Shown: piece after piece, positions 27,701-30,700 of the stretch
Numbering within the stretch: position 1 is the first letter of the stretch
Layout of the letters: the number at the start of each line of letters is the position of its first letter
Origin: Lota lota
Taxonomy: Eukaryota > Chordata > Actinopteri > Gadiformes > Lotidae
Assembly (NCBI GenBank): GCA_026745465.1
Contig: JACYXH010000088.1
Location: forward strand, 445,001 to 509,000
Direction: 5' to 3'
Length of the DNA stretch: 64,000 nucleotides
Position numbers and translations under genes: made by a program
The notes under the pieces: generated by a model
Databases searched by the model: none
What the model was told of the DNA's origin: nothing
What the model saw: the letters and a program-made list of their open reading frames with translations, nothing else

Positions 27701-30700
27701 GTCGATTTTAGCACTAGGACCAGTGTGTGTCATTAGTGGCTCTATGCTGTTCTCCTCTCCATCTGCTAGGGTATTAATGCTAATCCACTTTGAAAACCAC
27801 AAGAATCAGAGAAATGACTCCTCGGCTTCACTCTGCATGTTTTTCTAATGGGCAACTTATATTTAACTGTCAAGTTGAAGGTCACATGAGATGTGACTAT
27901 TTTATAATGATATAGATCCAAAATATAAGAGTTGAAGTTGTGTTTAAAGTTGGTCATATGCCCTAATATATCTATCATTCTTAATTGTGACTAGTAGCAG
28001 TTTTAGTAAATGGTACCCAGGTATAAGCTCGGGTAATGTTGCATGTATGGCCTCCAATAATAATGTTCCTCTGCTGTTGTAATGACAACTATTATCACAA
28101 GGGGGCAGTGATGGAAGAATGTCATGTTTATTTCCCTTTCAGAGGTGTAACCTTTGTTCACAAGCCCAATGTTAAGACATCATCAGGAATTAATTACAAT
28201 AATTGACACAATAGACACCAGCGGTGCTCCAACATAATATCTAACATACTATCAAATACATTATCCAACATGCCAATAATGTGATAATCTTTACATCGAC
28301 CAAAAAAGGCAATAAGCGCATCTTAACCCCCAACCTAAAGAACTGAACGCTAAACATCAGCCTCATCACCATCAACGTCTTTGAGACACCCACCTTTGCG
28401 GAGACGCGAGGAGTCCATGGTGCCGATGGTGTTGCTGCGCAGCGCCTTGCCCCCGGCGCTGGTGGGGACGCAGTAGTTCCCGTCCGCCTCTGACGCAGAC
28501 CGCGGCACGCAGTACGTATCTGTGGGCGACCGCTCGGCCGGCGGTGGCGGCGGCAGCAGCCCGGACCCAGAGCTCAGCGAGGGCTTGGGCGGTCTCGGCG
28601 GGGGCACCACATCGCCACCTCCTCCGACTCCGCCGCCGCCGCCGCCGACCTCCCCTCCGCCGCTTCCCGTCGAGGACGGGGGCAGCGTGCGGGGCACCTG
28701 GTAGGTGCAGTTAGCGCCGGGCGTGGGGGGGATGTCGTAGCTGATGGACATGTTGCGCAGCTGCGTCTCCATGCCGGACGAGGCCTTGCGCACCGGCGTG
28801 TTGAACACGTAGAGGTCGGCGTCGCTGTTGGCGGCGTCCGGGTGCGCCACGGGGGAGGAGGCAGCCTTGGGCAGCAGCACCGTGTCCTGGGAGTAGCTGC
28901 GCGGCAAAAGGTAGAGGCCCGCGCCGCCGCTGTCGTGTGAGAGCGAGGCGCCGCGCGACGGCGGCGAGTCGTAGATGGAGGAGGCCGAGGCGGGGCCCCC
29001 GTGCTGGGGGAAGAAGCCGTTGTGCGAGGCGTTGTGCTTGGCCGACGACGAGGTGGAGGAGGTGGGCGTGCGGTGCGACGGCAGGTTGTCGTTGAGGTCC
29101 GTCTCCGACGACGTGGACTTGGAGCACTCCGTGTGGCTCCTGACATGCGGGACAAAAGAGGACAACGGGGCGGGGGGGGGGGGGGGGGGGGGGGGGGGCG
29201 GTGGGGGATCAGTAATGGCTGTTATTCCCAACACACACAAGTTTCAACACAAACACTACAATACACTACAGAGATTCAGCCCCCGGTTTTGCAAGCCGTG
29301 TTAGAAGTGAGACGGGAGTTTAACCATCTCTGGGCATTTACATTTGAGATGCTGTACTCCTAGCGACAACCATTCGCTACGAGAGAGGTTATAAACAGAA
29401 ATACAAAGACACAAAACGTTAATCTAGGGTTGCAGGTTGAGTCCCTAGTAGAACACATTCACGCACATCAGATCCAGCTTGATGTGTGCAGCTCAGAAGA
29501 TCATAAAAGGGATGTAATGTCATGTTTACATCCCAGTACGTCGTCGCTGAAGCACATGCTCCTCGGCATGCGCTGCGGTCTACAATCAAGAGAGTTTGTA
29601 GGTACATGCTCATGTAGCGTGTGTGCGTAGAAACAATGGATCATATAGTATGATGTGTTAGTCAAGTGGTGTCTCAACACACAGCCGCACACGGTAGGCC
29701 CGTGTCTCCAGCTGGAGGTCGGGATCTCCAGTCGGGAGGACGGCCACTCACGGACAAGCCTGGGGACTGTGGCTCTCACACTCCTCCAGGAGGAGGTACT
29801 CCTGCTCCGGCACCCCGGGGGAGGGGGGAGGCCCGACGGAGCTACTGCTCTCCCCCACCGCAGAGTGACCACCCAGGGGGGGAAGGAGGAGGAGGAGGAG
29901 GAGGAGGAGGAGGAGGAGGAGGAGGAGGAGGAGGAGGAGGAAAACGCAGAAATTATATAAGTAGAAGAGAAGAGAATAGATTGGATTGGACGGGGATGGA
30001 CAGTGGCCAGTGATAACAAGAGAGGAAGGTAGAGGAGGTTGTCTGGTGAAAACTATCAGGGCAGAGTGGTGAGAGGTGATTGCACACAAAATCACACCAA
30101 CTCTCTCCCTCCCACACACACACACATACACACACACAGAAACACTCCGTTGCACACTGTTTACTACCTAAGATGCACACCCTCTCTCTCACACACACAC
30201 AAACACTGACCCCCACCCCCCCCCTTCAGCAGGCTCACCTGTTGGCGTCGGGCTTCTTGCTCTCACAGTTGACCAGCCACAGGTAGTCCTGGGGCTCATC
30301 CAGGCTGGACTGGGAGTCCAGGTGGCGCACGCTGACAGGCTGGTAGGGTGGGGGCACGTTGGTCAGCATGGCAGCAGGACCCCCCAGCAGAGGATGAGGG
30401 GGTGCGTCCACTACACTGCTGCCCCCCATGGCAGACTGGTGGGCTGCCTTGGCTGCCTCTGTTGGGACACATCAGGACGGATTCATAAATACCATGTTGT
30501 AAGTATTACATTATTATATTATATATTACTATACAAAAGGTCCAGGTAGTTATCTGGATGCATTTTAAACTATTTATTTCGGGTTCTTCTGTTGTATCGT
30601 TACCCGTGTTATTATTATTACCTTGTACTGTAGTTTTGCAAGAAAAGCGCTATATAAATAGTTTGATTGATTTCCTGGTATGTATAATACAATTGGATGA

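Follow-up and report, generated by a model that had tools for sequence, protein, structure and literature searches.

A candidate cassette exon of gab1 in Lota lota, the probable counterpart of the mammalian striated-muscle exon

Intron 4 of gab1 in Lota lota contains a 93-nt segment that is very probably, judging from its sequence, a genuine cassette exon of an already described kind. We consider it likely, with a probability of roughly 0.83, that this segment is the counterpart of the mammalian Gab1 striated-muscle cassette exon, and that it came from an ancient tandem duplication, was kept, and is included in muscle, acting in ErbB-AKT signalling. The position of the segment, its reading frame, its similarity to the human exon and its similarity to the preceding exon 4 are observed in the window, which is the whole 64-kb stretch of DNA that was analyzed.

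The candidate exon and its mammalian counterpart

Human GAB1 sequence matches 11 exons of the window in order, which identifies the gene as gab1, and a PH domain (Pfam PF00169, E 6.4e-19) is encoded by exons 2 and 3 together. Isoform a of human GAB1 has an optional exon of 30 residues, whose counterpart lies at 25396..25485 (minus strand; E 4.7e-9, with 63% identity across the 30 residues). That exon and the candidate are both optional in gab1 but lie at different places. Near codon 67, the PH domain is interrupted by an intron at 32943..33380 (minus strand); up to this position, the mammalian numbering of PMC5115770 counts one exon less, and the intron may therefore represent either a gain here or a loss in mammals. 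The features around the candidate are as follows.

30239..30458, minus strand: gab1 exon 4 (exon 3 in the mammalian numbering), 220 nt, phase 1 to 2
29752..29844, minus strand: candidate cassette exon of gab1, 93 nt, phase 2 on both sides, 31-residue peptide
28394..29139, minus strand: gab1 exon 5 (exon 4 in the mammalian numbering), located by its match and spliced reading

The segment has CAG before it, TAG at its start and GTGAGT after it. Read after the AG in which exon 4 ends, it is open without a stop in 31 codons, and its last CC joins the G of exon 5 into a P codon. When exons 1-5 were joined in silico, the frame was kept both with and without the segment, so the in-frame, stop-free segment with phase 2 on both sides that the sequence-only reading had placed in intron 4 is confirmed by sequence and by in-silico splicing. 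The first half of the candidate peptide is proline-rich, the GC content of the segment is 0.70 vs 0.53 for the intron, and the peptide alone matched no Pfam family.

A cassette exon of 81 bp, encoding 27 residues, was reported by Yasui in 2016 between exons 3 and 4 of mouse Gab1; by RT-PCR it was present in heart and absent from brain and lung (PMC5115770). According to the same source, the extra exon is highly conserved in mammals and has no homology to known functional domains, and the high-molecular-weight Gab1 protein occurs in heart and skeletal muscle of embryos and in the adult heart. The antigen made there from the human extra exon is, after a leading C, QGSSFVSEEGEEYLLLEDFESKTIPLQ; the human peptide contains EYLLLEDFES, and its first half is like QGSSFVSEEGE (PMC5115770). 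The proposal of a cassette exon in intron 4 thus agrees with a mammalian exon known from RT-PCR, and the word "undescribed" attached to it has to be dropped, as work published in 2016 had already cloned and studied the counterpart in mammals (PMC5115770).

When the human extra-exon peptide was searched against the window by tblastn, the best match was the candidate (29804..29772, 8/11 identical), at an E value of 0.077 that is insufficient alone, the alignment covering only 11 residues. The second match was unrelated (E 0.54) and the third was the end of exon 4 (E 0.74). Scored against 127,912 six-frame 15-mers, EYLLLEDFESKTIPL placed the candidate on top with 33 vs 23 for the next, and the score of the human-candidate pair was reached by 1/20,000 and 0/20,000 shuffles in two tests. 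The candidate core is identical to human EYLLLEDFES at 8/10 residues. Human GAB1 as a whole matches the candidate at E 0.19 only.

The place in the gene is also shared. The exon 3 primer of PMC5115770 translates to QSKKPE and exon 4 of the window ends in ESKKPDAN, so exon 3 of that paper is exon 4 here. In both cases the extra exon lies between the exon ending QSKKPEPT in mammals and the next coding exon, which begins here at 29139. The mammalian exon and the candidate therefore have in common the gene, the intron, a cassette arrangement, a length divisible by three and an EYLLLE[ED][CF]ES core. They differ in length (93 nt and 31 codons here, 81 bp and 27 codons in the mammalian exon) and in their first half, which is proline-rich in the candidate and acidic in the human exon; no first half like QGSSFVSEEGE was found in the candidate, the local alignment being confined to the core. 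We read the match as probable orthology, for which a core of 11 to 15 residues falls short of proof.

In the literature searched, which was mostly open access, no paper was found on the extra exon in fish, nor one on gab1 with "exon duplication"; the exon may already stand annotated in fishes among public predicted gene models. The main text of the zebrafish proximity-labelling paper PMC8034980 does not contain "gab1" or "gab" as whole words. A search of IMG/VR and GTDB contigs with gab1 exon 7 found no vertebrate gab1.

Several other elements were seen in the window. Two copies (8119..8319 and 50856..51059) of a dispersed repeat that contains a TG/CA run are 97.5% identical over 204 nt. An open reading frame at 10982..11311 (minus strand), presumably LINE reverse transcriptase by its appearance, matched no Pfam family. 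It lies ~0.7 kb on the 3' side of a UnaL2 LINE 3' element at 12027..12080 (minus strand; RF00436, 66.8 bits, the only Rfam match in the window), which is the wrong side for a single element. The open frame at 63556..63999 (minus strand) had no Pfam match, and we take it to resemble the C-terminus of USP38, whose gene lies next to GAB1 in mammals.

Similarity to the end of exon 4

The part of the candidate that resembles the preceding exon is the following.

29757..29804, minus strand: stretch repeating the end of exon 4, 16 residues, of which an 11-residue part also matches human EEYLLLEDFES

To assess this similarity, the 18 residues before every phase-2 GT on both strands were scored with BLOSUM62 against the last 18 residues of exon 4. 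Among 7846 GT sites, the donor of exon 4 itself scored 105, the candidate 42 and the next best site 16. Over all 127,894 six-frame 18-mers, the best score after exon 4 and the candidate was 25, and an exponential tail gives about 0.006 expected scores of at least 42 in the window. The likeness of the candidate to the end of exon 4 is not due to chance, and the idea of a duplicated exon end was well founded. Both ends, that of exon 4 (mammalian exon 3, carrying the DYLLL motif of mouse Y183) and that of the candidate, read [DE]YLxLxxC.S with a phase-2 donor at equal distance. Unlike the candidate, exon 4 cannot be left out if the ordinary protein is to stay in frame.

At the DNA level, the end of the candidate is the best match of exon 4 in the window, narrowly (101 vs 97 at an unrelated place, 6364 windows). 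Identity between the two ends by codon position is 12/18, 13/18 and 7/18 (Fisher 0.03), and dN and dS between the copies are 0.56 and 0.73, values in which a clear purifying signal is absent. The upstream intron flanks have no similarity beyond the window background; a match there (9/500 shuffles) was discarded for ranking 680/1266 against that background. The downstream flanks also showed no similarity, with a score reached by 274/500 shuffles. As the neighbouring introns are dissimilar, the exon seems to have persisted longer than the sequence around it.

The similarity is clear in the 3' part of the candidate and marginal in the 5' part. The 5' part of exon 4 aligns weakly upstream of the proposed acceptor, as the best of 2959 windows (91 vs 89 for the next independent one), with a score reached by 13/2000 shuffles. 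The score of the candidate peptide with its upstream extension was reached by 4/5000 shuffles against the whole of exon 4 and by 1/5000 against the human exon, results weaker than the ungapped test of the end. A loose DNA alignment of the whole region was misleading and was set aside. Among residues conserved in the family, 6/7 are kept, with p 0.025 when GAB2 is included and 0.31 with the window and human GAB1 alone, and we therefore do not rely on residue retention. The human extra exon itself resembles the end of mammalian exon 3 (15/20,000 shuffles), which fits one old duplication.

Splice sites and alternative explanations

Splice scores were calculated from approximate frequency tables. 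The gab1 reference set contains nine of the ten other donors (that of exon 9 was not placed) and eight of the ten acceptors (all except those of exons 7 and 10, which had no assigned position); the exon 9 acceptor, at 0.63 bits the lowest of the set, is a best guess of its place. The sites and tracts of the candidate are as follows.

29746..29751, minus strand: donor GTGAGT, preceded by TCC, 0.34 bits, weak on the exon side
29845..29847, minus strand: proposed acceptor CAG, very weak
29852..30042, minus strand: AG-free, mostly pyrimidine-rich stretch of 191 nt upstream of the acceptor cluster
29884-29941, minus strand: (CCT)19 repeat within the 191-nt stretch

The donor score compares with 1.37 to 7.23 bits for the nine other gab1 donors, and the acceptor scores -11.85 bits vs 0.63 to 6.15 bits for the eight gab1 acceptors. 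The four AGs of the acceptor cluster range from -11.0 to -14.5 bits, and these very poor scores result from G-rich bases directly before the acceptor. Both sites were at least as good in 163/2220 open phase-2 segments of 24-300 nt in the gab1 introns, and by summed splice score the candidate ranks 1163/2220 across these introns and 50/127 in its own. On splice sites alone, the candidate exon is unremarkable. The sequence-only reading had called the donor strong, but the donor is strong in one half only and neither site is strong as a whole; it had also described a tandem CAGTAG acceptor with either AG in frame, which is correct as far as it goes, although three AG starts actually keep the frame (29847, 29844 and 29841), with a nearby AG (start 29849) that shifts it. 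The acceptor is far below the scored gab1 acceptors, and any inclusion must therefore be regulated or rare.

The 191-nt stretch is the second longest of 3630 AG-free gaps on the minus strand, a length that is due in part to (CCT)19. The longest such stretch, 333 nt at 22826..23158 with a CTC repeat, lies before the last two gab1 exons. We also considered a full-length copy of exon 4, used in a mutually exclusive manner from a phase-matched AG (start 30052, 1.0 bits). Such a copy would read through (CCT)19, and for this reason and because the 5' similarity is marginal, it was not adopted.

The low acceptor score and the 163 background segments with equal or better sites would also be expected if the segment were a decaying relic, i.e. 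a true counterpart of the mammalian muscle exon whose splicing has ended with the loss of its acceptor in this lineage. The (CCT)19 microsatellite and G-rich sequence would then occupy the place of the acceptor signals, and the weak alignment of the 5' part of exon 4 (91 vs 89; 13/2000 shuffles) would place the proposed acceptor inside old coding sequence. However, no stop has appeared in 31 codons, the GT and the +3 to +6 bases of the donor are intact, and so is the core shared with the human exon; moreover, weak splice sites are frequent in muscle-regulated exons. We regard the loss of splicing as unlikely, though it is the most serious of the alternatives.

A better acceptor does exist upstream, with CAG at 30043-30045 (1.6 bits), and would define a longer exon of 291 nt, from 30042 to 29752, with the same donor. 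This segment is the top-scoring of the 127 open phase-2 segments in intron 4, and its frame is open from 30167, but it would translate (CCT)19 as poly-leucine, i.e. ~20 consecutive leucines in a cytosolic docking protein. The additional part is not known to resemble anything in Gab1, and the mouse exon has only 81 bp (PMC5115770). We consider the longer form very improbable. Least probable of all is a chance open reading frame in a GC-rich intron, for which the high GC content of the segment and its unremarkable splice sites would speak; against it, the segment resembles both the human extra exon and the 3' end of exon 4. We reject chance on the scores of 42 vs 16 in the donor scan, the 0.006 expected and the 33 vs 23 for the human peptide.

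Possible origin, regulation and function

Under the preferred reading, in which the segment corresponds to the muscle exon of mammals, a tandem duplication before the lineages split would have copied the 3' end of the preceding exon, with exon 4 as the probable source, and the copy would then have been kept. It is reasonably likely, and somewhat less so than the counterpart relationship itself, that the exon was born in this way before ray-finned fish and mammals separated, leaving vertebrate striated-muscle Gab1 with two tandem [DE]YLxL motifs that adjoin the PAK4-binding region or lie inside it. In the available text of PMC5115770, conservation is stated for mammals and a link to the preceding exon is absent, so that an origin by copying the end of that exon is new relative to this account.

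The transcript would come in two forms. Given the weak sites, default splicing should skip the exon, and skipping would yield the ubiquitous Gab1 protein. Possible signals for inclusion lie downstream in the intron.

29555..29662, minus strand: downstream intron motifs, ACTAAC from 29662 and GCATG from 29609, 29571 and 29559

A fourth GCATG in the same intron starts at 29148. Three GCATG fall within 200 nt downstream of the exon, and at least three occur in 45/5096 windows of 300 nt, a count to be read with the motifs having been picked after reading the intron. We take ACTAAC and GCATG to be possible QKI- and RBFOX-type sites, respectively. Our guess is that RBFOX and QKI, bound downstream, would promote inclusion in heart and skeletal muscle, and that a pyrimidine-binding repressor may act on the long upstream tract.

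The longer protein would serve ErbB-AKT signalling in muscle, like high-molecular-weight Gab1 in rodent heart cells. In mouse heart, NRG-1 led to tyrosine phosphorylation of this form, whereas LIF, HB-EGF and EGF did not, and its knock-down weakened AKT activation in neonatal rat cardiomyocytes (PMC5115770). Overexpression of low-molecular-weight Gab1 had a similar effect to the high-molecular-weight form, and for this reason the authors allowed for the two isoforms acting in the same way (PMC5115770). Residues 116-234 of Gab1 bind PAK4 according to a review (PMC2747914), and the insert falls within the matching region. The tyrosine motif said to be added by the exon is present as EYLLL and is at most a putative phosphorylation site: mouse Y183 (DPQDYLLLI) has a phosphorylation prediction of 0.078, below the threshold of 0.5 (PMC3637500, Table 1). 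We note that Y183 matches the tyrosine of exon 4, i.e. the older copy, and not the exon's own EYLLL tyrosine.

The window suggests that the muscle exon dates back as far as bony fish and duplicates a motif found in the exon before it. If this is true, muscle would double, under tissue-specific control, a docking motif that is uncharacterised. An insert without an explained function would thereby gain a testable idea, namely that the motif binds something and that muscle doubles the binding motif, and the zebrafish heart might serve as a model for the exon.
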